From Oscillospiraceae bacterium (lineage in GTDB: Bacteria > Bacillota > Clostridia > Oscillospirales > Ruminococcaceae), in the NCBI GenBank assembly GCA_018110855.1, contig JAGBFZ010000038.1, forward strand, positions 1 through 25,364: DNA of 25,364 bases, in the 5' to 3' direction. Shown one piece after another: positions 13,114-25,305 of this stretch; position 1 is the first letter of the stretch; each line of letters opens with the position of its first letter. The position numbers were made by a program, and so were the translations under genes. The notes under the pieces were generated by a model. The model saw nothing but the letters and a program-made list of their open reading frames with translations, searched no databases and had not been told where the DNA came from.

Positions 13114-15552
13114 TTGGAAAGATACGATTATGCCGCCATTGAAGCCAAATGGCAGAAATACTGGGAGGAGAACGAGACCTTCAAGACTGATGTTTGGGAT
13201 TTCTCAAAGCCTAAATACTATGTTCTCGATATGTTCCCCTACCCTTCGGGCGTGGGTCTTCATGCGGGACATCCCGAGGGCTACACCGCTACCGACATTG
13301 TTTCCCGAATGAAGAGAATGCAGGGCTACAATGTTCTTCATCCCATGGGCTATGACTCCTTCGGTCTCCCTGCTGAGCAGTATGCGGTTACTACGGGCAA
13401 TCACCCCAACGGCTTTACTCAGGAAAACATCAAGACCTTCTCAAAGCAGCTCAAGGAGCTTGGCTTTGACTACGACTGGTCTAAGATGATCGCTACCTCC
13501 GACCCAAAGTTCTACAAGTGGACTCAGTGGATATTCAAGCAGCTTTATCTGGACGGATATGCGAAGTATGTGGATATGCCTGTTAACTGGTGCGAGGAGC
13601 TGGGTACGGTTCTTTCCAATGATAAGGTCATTGACGGAAAATCCGAGCGTGGCGGCTATCCCGTTGTTAGAAAAAACATGAAGCAGTGGGTTATAGATCA
13701 GCCTGCCTTCGCCGAAAAGCTTCTTGAGGGACTTGAGGAGGTTGACTGGCCCGAGTCAACTAAGGCTATGCAGCGCAACTGGATCGGCAAATCCACAGGC
13801 GTTGAGGTCAAGTTTGACATTGTGGGCGGCGGCAATTTCAGCATCTACACCACCTGTATCGAAACTATCTACGGTATTACCTTTATGGTTCTTGCTCCCG
13901 ATGGTGACATTGTTAAGGAGCTTATGCCGAGGATAACCAACAAGGATGAGGTTCAGGCATACATTGACGAGACATTGAAGAAAAACGATATGGACCGCAC
14001 TGAGCTTAACAAGACAAAATCGGGCTGTGAGCTTAAAGGTGTTACCTGCATAAATCCCGTTAACGGCAAGGAAGTCAGAATGTTCATCGGTGACTTCGTT
14101 CTTGCAAGCTATGGCACAGGCGCAGTTATGGCTGTTCCATCTCACGACCAGCGTGACTTTGAGTATGCTGTTGCTCATAACATTGATATGATACAGGTAA
14201 TTGACGGCGATGATAGTCTCGGTCATGTTGATGTATCCGAAAAAGCCTTTGAAAAGGGAGATTATCTCGGCAAGGGCTACAAGCTCATCAATTCCGAGGA
14301 ATTTACGGGTCTTACCGTTGAAGAGGCTAAGGAAGCCATCACCTGCAAGCTCGAAAAGATGGGCGTTGCAAAGCGCACCACAAACTATCATTTCAGAGAA
14401 TGGATATTTGCCCGTCAGCGTTACTGGGGAGAGCCTGTTCCCGTTGTTCACACCGAAAACGGCGAGATCCACGTTCTCGATGATGAGGAGCTTCCTCTCG
14501 TTCTTCCGGAGCTTGCGGATTACAAGGGCAAAAACGGCAAGGCTCCTCTCGAAAATGCGGAGGAATGGAAAAAGTATGACAAAAACGGCATAAAGGGCAC
14601 AAGAGAGACCTCCACAATGCCCGGCTCCGCAGGCTCAAGCTGGTACTATTTCAGATATATCGACCCCGATAACGATAATGTATTTGCAGACCCCGAGCTT
14701 TTAAAGCATTGGATGCCCGTTGACCTGTACATCGGCGGTCCCGAGCACGCTGTCGGTCATCTTATGTACTCCCGTATCTGGAACAGATATCTCTATGACA
14801 AGGGTCTTGCTCCCACAAAGGAGCCTTTCAAAAAGCTTGTTCATCAGGGAATGATCTTAGGTGAGAACGGCATCAAGATGGGTAAGAGATATCCCGAATA
14901 TGTTATTAATCCCAGCGACATTGTAAGAGATTACGGTGCTGATACCCTTAGACTTTACGAGATGTTCATGGGTCCCCTTGAGGTTTCTAAGCCCTGGAGC
15001 AGCTCGGGTGTTGAGGGTGCAAAGAAGTTTATCACACGAGTATGGAATTTCTTTACCGAGCCTGCAAACCTTACTGAGGACAATGACGGCACTCTTACAA
15101 GAATTTACCATCAGACCGTTAAGAAGGTCACAGATGACTTTGAGGCTCTCGCATTCAACACCGCCATCAGCCAGCTCATGATATTCATGAACGCTGCCTA
15201 CAAGGCAGGCAAATGCCCCAAGGAATACGCAGAGGGCATTGTTAAGCTTATGTCTCCCATCACTCCTCATGTGGGTGAAGAGCTGTGGAGCAGACTTGGT
15301 CATGACAAGACCATCGCTTACGAGCCATGGCCAGTTTATGACGAAAAGGAGCTTGTGGTCGACACGGTTGAGATCGCTGTTCAGGTCAACGGAAAACTGA
15401 GAGGTACTGTTTCCATCGGCGTTGACGAGGAGCAGGAGTCCGCTCTTGCAAAGGCAAAGGCACATCCCGATGTGAAGGCTTTCATTGAGGGCAAGAACAT
15501 CATCAAGGAGATCTACGTCAAGGGCAGGATCATCAATATCGTGGCAAAGTAA
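13114..15552 (+). CDS. leuS: Leucyl-tRNA synthetase (TTG start)
   Basis: LeuRS charges tRNA-Leu. The 812-residue protein is full length. The first ATP-binding motif is HAGH at residues 50-53 in PYPSGVGLHAGHPEG. The editing-domain element TGAVMAVPSHDQRDFEYA follows, then FARQRYWGEPVP. The region TSTMPGSAGSSWYYFRYIDP comes next, and the position of the second ATP-binding motif reads KMGKR (588-592) rather than KMSKS. A C-terminal anticodon-binding domain ends with KEIYVKGRIINIVAK. The start is TTG at 13114, giving the family-like MERYDYAAIEAKWQKYW, with AAAGGA (13099-13104) 9 nt upstream. Only 63 nt separate it from the preceding gene and no T-box leader is visible. Confidence 0.97.
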   Translation: MERYDYAAIEAKWQKYWEENETFKTDVWDFSKPKYYVLDMFPYPSGVGLHAGHPEGYTATDIVSRMKRMQGYNVLHPMGYDSFGLPAEQYAVTTGNHPNGFTQENIKTFSKQLKELGFDYDWSKMIATSDPKFYKWTQWIFKQLYLDGYAKYVDMPVNWCEELGTVLSNDKVIDGKSERGGYPVVRKNMKQWVIDQPAFAEKLLEGLEEVDWPESTKAMQRNWIGKSTGVEVKFDIVGGGNFSIYTTCIETIYGITFMVLAPDGDIVKELMPRITNKDEVQAYIDETLKKNDMDRTELNKTKSGCELKGVTCINPVNGKEVRMFIGDFVLASYGTGAVMAVPSHDQRDFEYAVAHNIDMIQVIDGDDSLGHVDVSEKAFEKGDYLGKGYKLINSEEFTGLTVEEAKEAITCKLEKMGVAKRTTNYHFREWIFARQRYWGEPVPVVHTENGEIHVLDDEELPLVLPELADYKGKNGKAPLENAEEWKKYDKNGIKGTRETSTMPGSAGSSWYYFRYIDPDNDNVFADPELLKHWMPVDLYIGGPEHAVGHLMYSRIWNRYLYDKGLAPTKEPFKKLVHQGMILGENGIKMGKRYPEYVINPSDIVRDYGADTLRLYEMFMGPLEVSKPWSSSGVEGAKKFITRVWNFFTEPANLTEDNDGTLTRIYHQTVKKVTDDFEALAFNTAISQLMIFMNAAYKAGKCPKEYAEGIVKLMSPITPHVGEELWSRLGHDKTIAYEPWPVYDEKELVVDTVEIAVQVNGKLRGTVSIGVDEEQESALAKAKAHPDVKAFIEGKNIIKEIYVKGRIINIVAK

Positions 15553-19388: not shown

Positions 19389-21083
19389 TTATTTCCTGTC
19401 CGATTTAAGAATAACCTTTCTGTATTCGTCAAAGCGCACCCATTTTTCAAAGAATCCGCTCTTTTCCTCCTCGGTGCTTTCGGAATATTCCTTGAGGAAT
19501 GTCTTTACATCATTGTCGGAATATGCCTTCACTCCGAAGCCTCTGCCGTTTATTACCGGATATCCGCCGTAGGAATATTCCTCTGCGGAAATGATCTCGG
19601 TTATCTTTTTATCCCTGACCTTTACTGCTACCCAGTCTCTGAGAACGATAATATCAAAGCTGTCGGGATAATTATAGCTTTCTCCCGATGTGGGTATCTC
19701 GTCTCCAACGGTGTAGGTCGAATTAACGGGCTGATATTTCAGAACGTTCAGACTGCTTGTGTCATAGAAAAATTCCTCGAAAATATCTCCTCTTGCAGTA
19801 AGATCACCGAGCTTAAATGAAGCCCTGTCTGCAGCCGAGCCGCCCCTTTCGCTAAGCTCCTCCACAACTCCGCAGGCGGAGGTCATGTTGGTAACACGGT
19901 CAATCAGGATAAGCTCTCCCATGGTTTTGTGAGAGGTGAATTTATCCGCAGGGATAGCCTCGGTAAGAATGATATCGCAGAGAGCAATTCCGTTTTTGGA
20001 AAGCTTGTCGGTCTTGATATGCTCCCCTGTGTTCACATCAACGGCATATTCCACTCCCGAAAGTATTCCCGAAATAGTCTTTGTACCAAGCTTAACAAGG
20101 TAATCCTTGCCGATAACAAGCTCTTCATCATCCATCCAGAGTATGGACGCTTTCAGCCTTTTGTATACACCGATATCAGTGTCCTTAACAAGAACGCAGC
20201 CTCGTGAGACGTCCACCTCTTTATCAAGGGAAACGGTAACAGGCTGACCCTTATATGCAGTCTGCGCTTCCTTATCGGTAACAAGTATTCCCTTGACCGA
20301 AGCCTTTTCACCGCTTGGCAGAGCGGTTATTTCGTCTCCCACGCTTATGCTGCCCGATTCGATCTGTCCCTGAAAGCCTCTGAATGTGCGGTCGGGGCGG
20401 CATACCCTCTGAACGGGCATATAAAAGCCCTGTTCATCATGGTCGGATATGTCGATATTCTCAAGATATGTAAGAAGCGCAGGACCCGTATACCACTTGA
20501 TATTTTCAGACTTTTTGGTAACATTGTCGCCCTCGGTGGCAGAAAGAGGGATTATCTGAATATTCGGGAGAGAAAGCTCCTTTGTAAGCTCGTCTATCTG
20601 CACCTTTATCTCATTGAACCGCTCCTCGCTGTAATCCACAATATCCATTTTGTTTACAGCAAAAATGAAATATTTTATACCCATGAGACTGCATATTCTC
20701 GCATGGCGTCTTGTCTGAACAAGCACGCCCTGAGATGCGTCAATGAGAATTACAGCAAGATCTGCAAAGGAAGCTCCCACAGCCATGTTACGGGTGTATT
20801 CCTCATGTCCCGGAGTGTCCGCTACGATAAAGCTGCGGCGGTCGGTTGTAAAATATCTGTATGCCACATCAATGGTGATGCCCTGCTCACGCTCAGCCAT
20901 CAGACCGTCAAGGAGCAATGAATAGTCGATTTTTCCGCTTCTGCTGCCCACTCTGCTGTCCAGCTCAAGAGCCTTTTCCTGATCGGCATATAAAAGCTTT
21001 GAATCGTAAAGGATATGTCCTATCAGCGTTGATTTTCCGTCATCAACACTTCCGCAGGTAATAAATTTAAGAAGCCCTTTCAT
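19389..21083 (-). CDS. cysN: Sulfate adenylyltransferase subunit 1, CysN, with novel C-terminal extension
   Basis: CysN is the GTPase subunit of ATP sulfurylase, coupling GTP hydrolysis to formation of adenylyl sulfate (APS). The 564-residue protein has G1 GSVDDGKST at 11-19, DTPGHEEYTRNMAVGAS from 89 and NKMD at 144-147. EF-Tu-like beta domains follow, up to ILIDRVTNMTSACGVVEEL at about 410. A region of about 154 residues follows that has no P-loop, so it is not the APS kinase of CysNC fusions. It contains FDIIVLRDWVAVKV and ends KWVRFDEYRKVILKSDRK. Its function is unknown to me. The ATG overlaps the cysD stop by one base (TAATG), with GGGAGGG upstream. Confidence 0.95.
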   Translation of the reverse strand: MKGLLKFITCGSVDDGKSTLIGHILYDSKLLYADQEKALELDSRVGSRSGKIDYSLLLDGLMAEREQGITIDVAYRYFTTDRRSFIVADTPGHEEYTRNMAVGASFADLAVILIDASQGVLVQTRRHARICSLMGIKYFIFAVNKMDIVDYSEERFNEIKVQIDELTKELSLPNIQIIPLSATEGDNVTKKSENIKWYTGPALLTYLENIDISDHDEQGFYMPVQRVCRPDRTFRGFQGQIESGSISVGDEITALPSGEKASVKGILVTDKEAQTAYKGQPVTVSLDKEVDVSRGCVLVKDTDIGVYKRLKASILWMDDEELVIGKDYLVKLGTKTISGILSGVEYAVDVNTGEHIKTDKLSKNGIALCDIILTEAIPADKFTSHKTMGELILIDRVTNMTSACGVVEELSERGGSAADRASFKLGDLTARGDIFEEFFYDTSSLNVLKYQPVNSTYTVGDEIPTSGESYNYPDSFDIIVLRDWVAVKVRDKKITEIISAEEYSYGGYPVINGRGFGVKAYSDNDVKTFLKEYSESTEEEKSGFFEKWVRFDEYRKVILKSDRK

Positions 21084-21982
21084 TAAAAATAGCCCTCCCT
21101 TTTGCGGCGCTCCATGCTGCCCGCCGCTTCATTGTCAATAACTCTCGAGGTGCGCTCGGACGATACGGCGCTGAGAGTTTCCTCGATTATCTCATCGAGA
21201 GTGTCCGCATGGGACTCAATGCCGCCCGTAAGCGGATAGCAGCCTAAGGTCCTGAATCTTACAGACTTCATCTGCGGAACCTCTCCCTCTTTAAGCGGCA
21301 AACGGTCGTCGTCCACCATGATAAGGTTTCCGTCACGCTCAACAACAGGGCGCTCCTTCGCAAAATAAAGAGGAACTATATCAATATTTTCACGCTTTAT
21401 GTACTGCCAGATATCCTTTTCCGTCCAGTTGGAAATTGGGAAAACTCTTATGCTTTCGCCCTTGTTTATCTTAGCGTTGTAAAGCTTCCACATTTCGGGA
21501 CGCTGATTTTTGGGATCCCATGCATGAGCGGCGTTTCTGAATGAGAAAATCCTCTCCTTTGCACGGGATTTCTCCTCGTCCCGTCTGCCTCCGCCGAATG
21601 CTGCGGTGAAGCCGTATTTGTTGAGCGCCTGTTTTAACGCCTGAGTTTTCATGATATCTGTGTAGGCAGAGCCGTGGTCGAAGGGATTTATCCCCTGCTT
21701 GACACCGTCCTCATTGATGTATTCAAGCATTTCAATGCCAAGCTTCTTTGCGGTCTTATCACGAAATTCTATCATCTCCTTGAATTTCCATGTGGTGTTC
21801 ACATGGAGAAAAGGAAATGGCGGCTTTTCGGGATAAAACGCCTTCATTGCAAGATGGAGCATTACAGAGCTGTCCTTGCCGATGGAATAGAGCATAACAG
21901 GCTTCTCGCACTCCGCCGCAACCTCTCTGATTATGTAAATAGCTTCCGCTTCAAGCTCATCAAGATGTGTAAATTCGCTCAC
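21083..21982 (-). CDS. cysD: Sulfate adenylyltransferase subunit 2, CysD
   Basis: CysD is the catalytic ATP-pyrophosphatase subunit that joins sulfate to AMP. The 299 residues carry the PP-loop SIGKDSS at 33-39 in [21 protein letters not shown]. They also carry family stretches [37 protein letters not shown] and [17 protein letters not shown]. An in-frame GTG at 21991 overlaps the AGGAG ribosome binding site (21991-21995). The GTG at 21982, 8 nt downstream, is therefore the likely start, giving [18 protein letters not shown]. It lies 11 nt after the AprB-like gene and overlaps cysN by one base, in an uninterrupted operon. Confidence 0.96.
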
Positions 21983-21993
21983 GTTATTCACTC

Positions 21994-22308
21994 CTAATAC
22001 TTATTTGATTCTCTGGGGTCAACGTCAATATGTGAAACACTGCCGTCCGGGCTTTCAAATATCCACCGCAGCAGACCGCCCTCTTGTTCGGTGTGAAGAG
22101 TTGTTCCGCTGCCGCCCATGTCAGCGCCTAAGTAAAGGCTTATGGCGTGAACGGGACATTCCTTGAGGCATGAGGTGCAGCCCCAGCAGTCCTTTGGATA
22201 TTTGATAAATGCCTTTTTGTCAGCGCCTATTTTAATAAGTGTACCGGGACAAACCTCATGGCATTTTCCGCATCCGACGCATTTGCTTTTATCAATTGCT
22301 ATGCTCAT
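21994..22308 (-). CDS. aprB: AprB-like two-cluster ferredoxin subunit of adenylylsulfate reductase
   Basis: The 104-residue protein binds two 4Fe-4S clusters through Cys10/13/16/20 ([11 protein letters not shown]) and Cys41/44/47/51 ([11 protein letters not shown]). A tail of about 50 residues ([25 protein letters not shown] ...) follows, resembling the AprB tail that wraps around AprA and carries no extra cysteines. This tail separates it from a plain ferredoxin. It would pass electrons to the FAD of the AprA-like subunit for reduction of APS to sulfite and AMP. GAGGAGGG lies 11-12 nt upstream of ATG, inside the continuation of the AprA frame. The stop is TAG. It is shorter than classical AprB of sulfate reducers, so an assimilatory-type enzyme is likely. 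Confidence 0.88.
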
Positions 22309-22441
22309 AAAGCCGTTGTCCCTCCTCGGTAAGCTCTCTTAAAATTATTTTTATTTCGCCGTTTTCCATTCGGGAATTGACGTATTTTTTGTAATTTATA
22401 TTATCCTTATGAGGATAGTCGAGATTCTCGGCAAAGGAATG
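22292..22441 (-). other. In-frame continuation of the AprA-like gene after an amber codon
   Basis: After the TAG at 22442-22444 the same frame stays open for 49 codons to TGA 22292-22294. It reads HSFAENLDYPHKDNINYKK followed by YVNSRMENGEIKIILREL and [12 protein letters not shown]. It overlaps the aprB start by 17 nt, as other genes here overlap, and contains the aprB ribosome binding site. The reading looks like real protein, with a YP element and charged helix of the kind seen at the end of AprA and fumarate reductase-type flavoproteins. It is therefore most likely the original C-terminus of the preceding gene, now cut off, misread by a sequence error, or reached by read-through. Confidence 0.8.
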
Positions 22442-23974
22442 CTAGCGTGTTTCATGCCTTGCCCGTAAATGTGCGATAACGCTCCTGCATACTGTAAGCC
22501 GCTCCCGCAGCTCATAAATATACATAAGCTCCTGAAAATCATCGGCATGAAGCTTTTCGGACAGAACTTCAAGCTCTGTTATCCGCCTGTCGGCAATATC
22601 AAGCTGACTTGCGTTAAAGCGATAATTTGTCTTAATTCCTCCTGCATAGGAATCCATGACTGTCTGCATAGCTTCCTCAAGCTGCTCTGTGGAATAAAAG
22701 GAGTTATCCTCGCCCGTAAATCTCTCTATCTCGGCAATATGCGAATTTATCTCAGCTTCTCCAATATTGGCAGGAGCATTTTCCGAAATAAACCTTACCG
22801 CCGCAAGCGCTGCTATCTCTCCCTCTGCAAGAGCGCCCGTAACATATTTCTGAGGACAGCCTCCCGAAACATCTCCCGCAGCATATAAGCCCTTAATGGT
22901 GGTGGCACGGTTAGTATCCACCCAGTAACCGCTTGCGGTGTGACCGCCGACTATGTACGGTTCAGTGCCTTCTATCTCCACATTCTGCTCGGATATCTTC
23001 CTGCCGCTCTCCACCCATTTAAGGGTCTGAGAGGGAGCCATGTTCAGATAGGCTTTGAGTAAGGAATCCTCCGTTTCGGGAGAGATGCCCTCGGTTTTCA
23101 GATAACAGGGTCCCCTGCCCTCAAGGTTTTCCATAACAGTGCCGTAAACTCTTTCGGAGGTGGTAAGACCGTATTTTGTCTCGTATATTTCACCCTGAGA
23201 ATTTATTTGCTTTGCTCCCGCACCCTGCGCAAGAGTTCCCGTGGGAGCAATAGTGTCCTTGCAGCGAAGAGCGATAAAACGCATTTCAAAGGTGGTCATC
23301 TCCGCACCGTGACGTATGCCCATGGCATAGCCCGCACCCGTGTTAAAGGGAGGATACCACATTTTATGCCGTGAAGCGCCGGGATTATTGGGCTTGTAAA
23401 GTCCCGCCGCACCGCCTGTGGCAATTATCACCACATTTGCTTCAATGGAATAAAATGTGTCATTCTCGATACCGATGGCAAAAGCACCCTTTATCCTGTT
23501 GTCCGAAACGGAAATATCCGTAACGTTCACACGGTTCAGGACAGTAACATTCGGCAGCTTTTCAACAGCTGCCGCAAGAATGGGCTTGATATTCTCACCG
23601 TTTATCTTGATGTTTCTGTTTCCTCTTGCAGCATATTTTCCGTTCTCGTCCTTTAAAATGACGAGTCCCAGCTCCTCAAGCCTTTCTGTGACCTTGTTGA
23701 GCCGCTCGGACATGGTAATGAGCAGATCGTCACGGACAATGCCGTCTGCGTCCTTTTTTGCGTAATCAACATAATCCTGCGGAGTTCTTCCCTCGGTGAT
23801 GTATGCATTCAGCGCATTCACACCAGCCGCAAGACAGCCGCTGCGCTTGATATGCGCCTTTTCGCAGATAAGAATATTCAGCTCCGAATTTTCCGCAGCA
23901 GTCAGAGCCGCATAGCAGCCTGCCGCACCACCGCCAATGATAAGCAGATCGGTCTTTATCTTTTCTGTTTTCAC
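22442..23974 (-). CDS. aprA: AprA-like adenylylsulfate reductase flavoprotein, ended by in-frame amber
   Basis: AprA-like FAD proteins of the fumarate reductase/succinate dehydrogenase superfamily reduce APS to sulfite and AMP. The FAD dinucleotide motif GGGAAGCYAALTAAE is near residue 14. Next come VVIIATGGAAGLYKPNNPG, the YIVGGHTASGYWVDTNRATT region and the C-terminal FAD-binding GLYAAGDVSGGCPQKYVTGALAEGEIAA. It ends ERLTVCRSVIAHLRARHETR before TAG 22442-22444, where homologues usually continue. The next 49 codons in frame look coding. GTG 23974, 4 nt after trxB, is the likely start; in-frame GTGs at 23986 and 24022 are alternatives. This gives 510 aa, or about 560 with the continuation. 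It is paired with the AprB-like gene directly downstream. Confidence 0.88.
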   Translation of the reverse strand: MKTEKIKTDLLIIGGGAAGCYAALTAAENSELNILICEKAHIKRSGCLAAGVNALNAYITEGRTPQDYVDYAKKDADGIVRDDLLITMSERLNKVTERLEELGLVILKDENGKYAARGNRNIKINGENIKPILAAAVEKLPNVTVLNRVNVTDISVSDNRIKGAFAIGIENDTFYSIEANVVIIATGGAAGLYKPNNPGASRHKMWYPPFNTGAGYAMGIRHGAEMTTFEMRFIALRCKDTIAPTGTLAQGAGAKQINSQGEIYETKYGLTTSERVYGTVMENLEGRGPCYLKTEGISPETEDSLLKAYLNMAPSQTLKWVESGRKISEQNVEIEGTEPYIVGGHTASGYWVDTNRATTIKGLYAAGDVSGGCPQKYVTGALAEGEIAALAAVRFISENAPANIGEAEINSHIAEIERFTGEDNSFYSTEQLEEAMQTVMDSYAGGIKTNYRFNASQLDIADRRITELEVLSEKLHADDFQELMYIYELRERLTVCRSVIAHLRARHETR

Positions 23975-23978
23975 GGGA

Positions 23979-24899
23979 TCACTCACCCTTTTCGCTAAGA
24001 TATTTTTCAGCGGAATAAACACTGTTTGCGCCGTCCGCCGCAGCCGTTACCACCTGTCTCAAAGGCTTTGTTCGGACATCACCCGCAGCGAATATTCCCT
24101 TTGCGGAGGTAATACAGTCCTCACCCGCAATAACATAGCCATTCCCGTCAAGCTCCGCAATACCATCAAGAAGAGCGCTGTCGGGAGCATTTCCGATCGC
24201 CGCAAAAACGCCGTTTACGGGAATAACACGTTCCTCGCCGTTCTGCGATATCCGCAGATTCTCAACTCTCTTTTCACCCGAAATCTCCACAGGAACGGCA
24301 TTATAAATTATCTCGATATTTTCCGTCTCCATGATCTGCTTTGAAAGAGTCTTGTTTCCTCTGAAAGCGTCTCTTCGGTGGATAAGATAGACCTTTTCGG
24401 CTATCTTCGAGAGAAAAATCGCTTCACCCAAAGCAGTATCTCCACCGCCGATAACAGCGGCGGTCTTGTTTTTGTAAAATGCCCCGTCGCATACAGCGCA
24501 GTAGGAAACTCCCTTTCCCGCAAATTCAGCCTCGCCCTTGATACCGAGCTTTCTGTGAGAAGCCCCCGCAGCATATATAACGGTTTTGGTCATATAAGAG
24601 CTGCCGTCCTCAAGAGAGATCCTGTATAACCCATTATCGGGAACGATCTCAGTGACCTCGCCCTCAATGAATGAAGTGCCGAGAGCTTCGGCATGACTGC
24701 GGAATTTCTCCCCCAGCTCAAAGCCGTTTTCGCCGTAAAGCCCGGGGTAATTATCCACCCGCTCGCTTTCTGCGATCTGCCCCGTACCCATGTAATTTTT
24801 CTCGATAACTATATATTCAAGGGCTGCACGGCTTGCATATATGGCTGCGGAAAGTCCCGCAGCTCCGCTGCCGATTATAATGGTATCATAGATCTTCAT
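23979..24899 (-). CDS. trxB: Thioredoxin reductase
   Basis: TrxB uses NADPH to reduce thioredoxin. The 306-residue protein has FAD motif GSGAAGLSAAIYASRA from residue 10. The redox-active pair Cys134-Cys137 lies in SYCAVCDGAF. NADPH-binding residues are in VIGGGDTALGEA and IHRRDAFRGNK, and the C-terminal FAD loop is GIFAAGDVRTKPLRQVVTAAADG. ATG 24899 is preferred: AAGGAC lies about 10 nt upstream and the protein then starts MKIYDTIIIGSG. Other in-frame ATGs at 24917 and 24932 lie inside the preceding gene. It overlaps the JAMM gene by 14 nt. Its place in the sulfur operon suggests it supplies reducing power to cysteine or sulfite metabolism rather than only general thioredoxin turnover. Confidence 0.95.
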   Translation of the reverse strand: MKIYDTIIIGSGAAGLSAAIYASRAALEYIVIEKNYMGTGQIAESERVDNYPGLYGENGFELGEKFRSHAEALGTSFIEGEVTEIVPDNGLYRISLEDGSSYMTKTVIYAAGASHRKLGIKGEAEFAGKGVSYCAVCDGAFYKNKTAAVIGGGDTALGEAIFLSKIAEKVYLIHRRDAFRGNKTLSKQIMETENIEIIYNAVPVEISGEKRVENLRISQNGEERVIPVNGVFAAIGNAPDSALLDGIAELDGNGYVIAGEDCITSAKGIFAAGDVRTKPLRQVVTAAADGANSVYSAEKYLSEKGE

Positions 24900-25305
24900 C
24901 AATTGTAAGTCCTTCATTTTCTGCGGTATCACCGCTTATCTTGAATGAGTTCAGAACGGGCTTTTCCCTGTCCATAAGCGAAAGGATAAGATAGCTTGCC
25001 TTGCTGTCATAAGCAAGGCGCTTGTCCTCCTCGGAGGGACGTGAGGGAGATTCGGGGTGAGAATGCCAGTTTCCAAGCGGTGTCAGCCCGTTTGCCCGCA
25101 TATCCTTCACCGCCGCAAGCTGCTCCTTGGGGTCAAGGGAGAAATGCTCGTTTGAATGGTCGGTATTGGTAAGGATATAGACCTTTTTTATCACCTTGCC
25201 GCTGTCCGTTATCTCCCCTGCGATAAGCCCGCAGGCTTCCTCGGGAAGAACGCTTTCGGCGTGTTTTAATATTTTTTCAAAATCAGCTCTTTTCAGAGTT
25301 ATCAT
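24886..25305 (-). CDS. JAMM/Mov34-type metallopeptidase (Mec-like)
   Basis: The 139-residue protein is a minimal JAMM domain. It has the metal site HSHPESPSRPSEED (His81, His83, Ser91, Asp94), matching HxHx7SxxD, with the upstream conserved glutamate near residue 23 in LPEEACGLIAGE. The family cleaves isopeptide or C-terminal amide bonds. Small bacterial members such as mycobacterial Mec+ release cysteine from the sulfur carrier CysO. Such proteins often sit with ThiS- and MoeB-like genes. The ribosome binding site GAGGAAT overlaps the stop of the partial upstream gene, 7-8 nt before the ATG. In this operon a role in sulfur-carrier-based cysteine or methionine synthesis is likely by context. 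Confidence 0.9.
   Translation of the reverse strand: MITLKRADFEKILKHAESVLPEEACGLIAGEITDSGKVIKKVYILTNTDHSNEHFSLDPKEQLAAVKDMRANGLTPLGNWHSHPESPSRPSEEDKRLAYDSKASYLILSLMDREKPVLNSFKISGDTAENEGLTIDEDL

Follow-up and report, generated by a model that had tools for sequence, protein, structure and literature searches.

An in-frame TAG at a conserved tryptophan site in an aprA-like gene of an Oscillospiraceae bacterium

The window analysed here, a stretch of 25,364 nucleotides, carries an AprA-like gene whose reading frame meets a TAG codon and then stays open for a further 49 codons. This raises the question of whether the protein is truncated in the organism, whether the codon is an error of the assembled sequence, or whether TAG is read as sense at this position. 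We compared the site with its counterparts in homologous proteins and loci, and searched the genome for the machinery that reads or terminates at amber codons.

The interrupted aprA-like gene and its operon

The operon lies on the minus strand, in the order Prok-JAB domain gene (24886..25305, the first complete operon gene within the window), thioredoxin-reductase-like gene (23979..24932), aprA-like gene, aprB-like gene, cysD and cysN, and all coordinates given here for its genes refer to that strand. The 510 codons of the aprA-like gene that precede the TAG occupy 22445..23974, counted from a GTG at 23974, with a GTG at 24022 also possible in frame; their product matches NF005331, adenylyl-sulfate reductase subunit alpha. 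The sequence agrees with the frame as given in the preliminary description, running through ...RARHETR to the TAG at 22442..22444 and on through 49 open codons (HSFAENLDYPHKDN...YEHSN) to a TGA at 22292..22294. The orphaned 3' end of aprA, which encodes a conserved C-terminus, thus covers 22292..22441. The aprB-like gene for a ferredoxin subunit (21994..22308) has its ATG at 22306..22308, and both spacings proposed earlier hold, namely a 17-nt overlap of the aprB start with the longer aprA frame and a 133-nt gap (22309..22441) if aprA ends at the TAG. The overlap also occurs in relatives, with 17 nt in G013 and 20 nt in the same-genus genome G011, whose aprA frame is one codon longer than that of the window. 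The ribosome-binding site of aprB, GGAGG just 5' of the ATG, is located inside the orphaned aprA 3' end.

The next gene is cysD (21083..21991), encoding the small subunit of sulfate adenylyltransferase, followed by a cysN-like gene (19389..21083) for the large subunit with a C-terminal extension. CysN matches end at residue 407 to 418 of 564, leaving ~150 residues past the recognised domains; the last CysN domain of Pfam ends at 408, and the extension had no Pfam match at an E-value of 0.001.

Alignment of the 49 downstream residues, suggested in the preliminary description, gave whole-length matches to G011 (94% identity) and G013 (90%). With NF005331, for which the curated cut-off is 557 bits, the truncated and the read-through AprA both scored above the cut-off; without the 49 codons the match reached profile position 514 of 563 with 871.6 bits, and with read-through it reached position 562 of 563 with 933.5 bits, a gain of 62 bits. 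The full-length alignments and the extended profile match are more than chance would produce, and on sequence grounds the 49 codons after the TAG are the genuine AprA C-terminus. The gene resembles the AprA-type alpha subunits of NF005331 (PRK06854) in its score and in its operon with aprB and cysDN. However, the TAG causes the window copy to stop short in the profile: rather than a protein of ~560 residues with the conserved C-terminus, the frame yields 510 codons, and the C-terminus lies behind the TAG.

The TAG site in relatives

When the read-through protein was aligned with homologous proteins (the best 120 of 7978), the TAG site was occupied by tryptophan in 120 of 120. The same site was located in DNA by tblastn mapping, which placed 103 loci including the window; all 102 others carried TGG, 22 of them from the genus and family searches and the remainder being the top 80 among 444 confirmed genome_contigs places, with some genomes counted twice, so that the 103 loci represent 91 distinct protein segments. 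The comparison with close relatives that had been called for therefore returned tryptophan or TGG in every relative examined. None of these 120 proteins and 102 loci had a stop at the site, and homologues that also end at HETR, which were looked for, did not appear among them. The TAG allele was seen in one assembly only among the genus, family and genome_contigs loci compared, and the bases flanking it are ordinary coding sequence common to the relatives.

Other stops were encountered in the aligned loci. Single TGA codons in G104, G194 and G068 from the family search were considered as shared stops and rejected, since each directly follows the usual C-terminal YEH and is an ordinary terminator. 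Stops also occurred close to the 5' terminus of the aligned segment in fourteen loci; these fall within the stretch aligned to the 16-residue N-terminal extension of the nearest homologue, P0002, and upstream of the start used for the window aprA.

P0002, the nearest homologue among the best 120 of 7978, is full length, has tryptophan at the site and shows five further residue differences from the window protein. One of these differences, valine at position 181 of the window protein, is unusual, as alanine is found in 117 of 119 others and valine is absent from P0002. Among columns that are otherwise invariant, the window AprA deviates at three, TAG included, and the other two departures are common to the intact P0002. 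Three such departures stand at the high end among the 120 proteins compared, 95 of which have none.

The dN/dS values against G011 were 0.075 before the TAG and 0.061 after it, the latter from a small sample of only 49 codons, and purifying selection on the two parts appears similar. Further decay, in the form of second lesions or relaxed selection, was not seen in the gene, and its single stop fits either a recent event or an error. One aprA copy was found in this genome, which is estimated to be 95% complete; a second intact copy was looked for there and none was found.

Nonsense change, consensus error or sense reading

Four options had been put forward for the TAG in the preliminary description. 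Two of them, a tryptophan codon changed to nonsense and a sequence error, are supported by the finding of TGG or tryptophan in all relatives examined, whereas programmed read-through and a suppressed amber are not supported, as no relative examined had a stop at the site, the flanking bases are ordinary coding sequence and no amber-decoding machinery was found, the tRNA set being incomplete. In the explanation that we propose, the codon for a single conserved tryptophan has recently turned into a stop, so that AprA breaks off after residue 510 of roughly 560. We judge such a recent, isolated change in the assembled strain to be the probable explanation, with appreciable doubt. The locus resembles ordinary nonsense alleles and young pseudogenes in that a gene found once and otherwise intact carries one stop and an intact, near-identical protein exists in the databases, and no difference from them was found. 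Most simply, the finding is an ordinary one, an isolated broken copy or a sequence error, and not a new reading of the code. A literature search on aprA and assimilatory sulfate reduction in ruminococci, and on in-frame stops in metagenome-assembled genomes, found no paper within the literature covered.

The strongest competitor is an error of consensus or assembly, in which case the organism would carry a tryptophan codon and the TAG would be confined to this contig. We regard this as a serious but less probable explanation. The TAG is one base away from the codon of all relatives examined, the near-twin P0002 has tryptophan, and the assembly consists of 455 contigs with an estimated contamination of 6.25%. 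Furthermore, aprA shows little decay elsewhere, and its lack of a second lesion is just as compatible with an error. Against it stands a comparison of gene ends with G011, in which 23 of the 24 other window genes could be aligned (the remaining one, located where the contig begins, found no counterpart in the G011 stretch that was retrieved). The ends of all 23 lie no more than three codons from those of their G011 copies and none is cut short, indicating that the local lesion rate is not visibly high; the same test applied to aprA as a positive control showed 51 further codons in G011. In addition, alleles with a single nonsense change are expected, as a rough generality, to outnumber such sequence errors in a typical genome. 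A real strain allele is moderately favoured over a consensus error, a preference based on this general expectation rather than on the data here.

Functional read-through or natural amber suppression would require the ribosome to insert an amino acid at the TAG so that full-length AprA is made. The downstream codons are indeed conserved and constrained, and the TAG is followed by C rather than U, which is not the strongest context for termination. However, the site is free of stops in every relative examined, so this is not a conserved read-through programme, and programmed read-through, whose chief hallmark would be a stop shared by relatives, finds no support. Local RNA folding was also unremarkable, as the 141 nt around the TAG gave a z-score of -1.35 and 18 of 200 shuffled sequences folded equally well.

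The proposed check for an amber suppressor was run and came back empty within the material available. Among 29 tRNA-like matches ARAGORN read 27, and a CUA anticodon was present in none of them; the recovered set lacks tRNAs for several amino acids, tryptophan among them, and the absence of this anticodon is for that reason weak evidence. A pyrrolysine reading was considered and rejected, as the PylS search of this genome (estimated 95% complete) gave two weak matches, the better of which reached 18.7 bits where the cut-off is 178.15. We consider read-through or suppression at this codon very unlikely, and its specific form, in which a natural amber-suppressing tRNA missing from the fragmented assembly reads the TAG in the AprA ETRW motif often enough to sustain sulfate assimilation, slightly more so. 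One tRNA-like match of 99 nt (L139:1501-1599, plus strand; 36.9 bits) was left unread by ARAGORN. It may be a candidate selenocysteine tRNA, with UCA discerned by eye in a possible anticodon loop and a predicted fold that does not form a clean cloverleaf.

TAG serves as an ordinary stop elsewhere in this genome, as had been stated earlier for two genes of the window. The aprB-like gene has its terminal TAG at an identical position in the window and in both G011 and G013, and the DinB-like gene ends with TAG where G011 has TAA; coaE on another contig, C96, also ends in TAG, after its NCBIfam profile match. In a sample of 188.8 kb (the window and 20 other stretches), 18 open frames of at least 150 codons ended in TAG. 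These were judged by eye, with aprA, coaE and the DinB-like gene checked, and in aprA the continuation is the same protein. A scan of the same sample for in-frame continuations past stops flagged ten cases, zero of them at TAG; as the scan also missed the known aprA case, it carries no weight here.

The release factor that recognises amber codons was searched for by profile. The RF1 search of this genome gave a 254-bit match, below the cut-off of 423, which was taken for RF2. An RF1-like C-terminus was also found, as a 41-position match in a 46-residue frame on contig C96; it ends at base 14322 of this 14324-base contig, indicating that the contig end truncates the gene. Of the 20 genus genomes, the window's own included, 16 had an RF1 match above the cut-off. 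The RF1 fragment, the presence of RF1 in most genus genomes and the three TAG-ended genes argue against read-through as well as against recoding. A genome-wide reassignment of TAG to tryptophan or another residue, to which the lack of a full-length RF1 match in this assembly and the incomplete tRNA set might lend themselves, is extremely improbable, and we rejected recoding on the RF1 evidence together with TAG at natural gene ends, in keeping with the earlier view that general amber recoding is unlikely. Where a fragmented assembly shows an in-frame stop with intact codons behind it, the best reading, once relatives have been checked, is a one-off lesion or error, and caution is advisable before more is made of it.

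Consequences of a truncation and the AprA branch

If the nonsense change is real, translation would end at the TAG, and AprA would lose its last tenth, the conserved C-terminal segment ETRW...DYP. The lost stretch includes a segment conserved in archaeal enzymes with solved structures, and the truncated AprA would probably be inactive. With a ribosome-binding site of its own, aprB may continue to be translated, subject to some polarity. Since reduced sulfur is available in gut habitats, the allele would probably be tolerated. A real allele would mark a strain without this reduction step, dependent on external reduced sulfur.

Among solved structures, PDB 8a8o is closest by sequence to the window AprA, with 616 bits; the structures that follow, 1jnr and 2fja, score 282. 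Both 8a8o and 1jnr/2fja contain the ETRW motif of the TAG site, as opposed to the window copy, which is truncated at that tryptophan. The 8a8o protein is the alpha subunit of the PAPS reductase of Methanothermococcus thermolithotrophicus, and a glutamine (alpha 145 in A. fulgidus) is given as conserved in APS reductases (PMC10322725). This glutamine aligns with an asparagine in the window AprA, according to a manual count on the alignment of structure homologues. The seven aprA-bearing genomes of the genus were also searched for APS kinase, and no match covered more than 37 of 152 profile positions; matches of 37 positions were found in five of them and none in two. The longest APS kinase match in the genus, 115 positions, was in G018, a genome without a strong aprA match. 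The short matches in the aprA-bearing genomes make the use of PAPS doubtful, and the substrate of this bacterial AprA branch may be either APS or PAPS.

The gene is patchily distributed. Strong full-length aprA matches were present in 7 of 20 genus genomes, and matches at E-values of 1e-100 or below in 17 of 297 family genomes, the window's own genome being included in both counts. The genome_contigs search also found aprA relatives in Fibrobacter genomes, and the patchy spread together with these relatives suggests loss or transfer of the gene.
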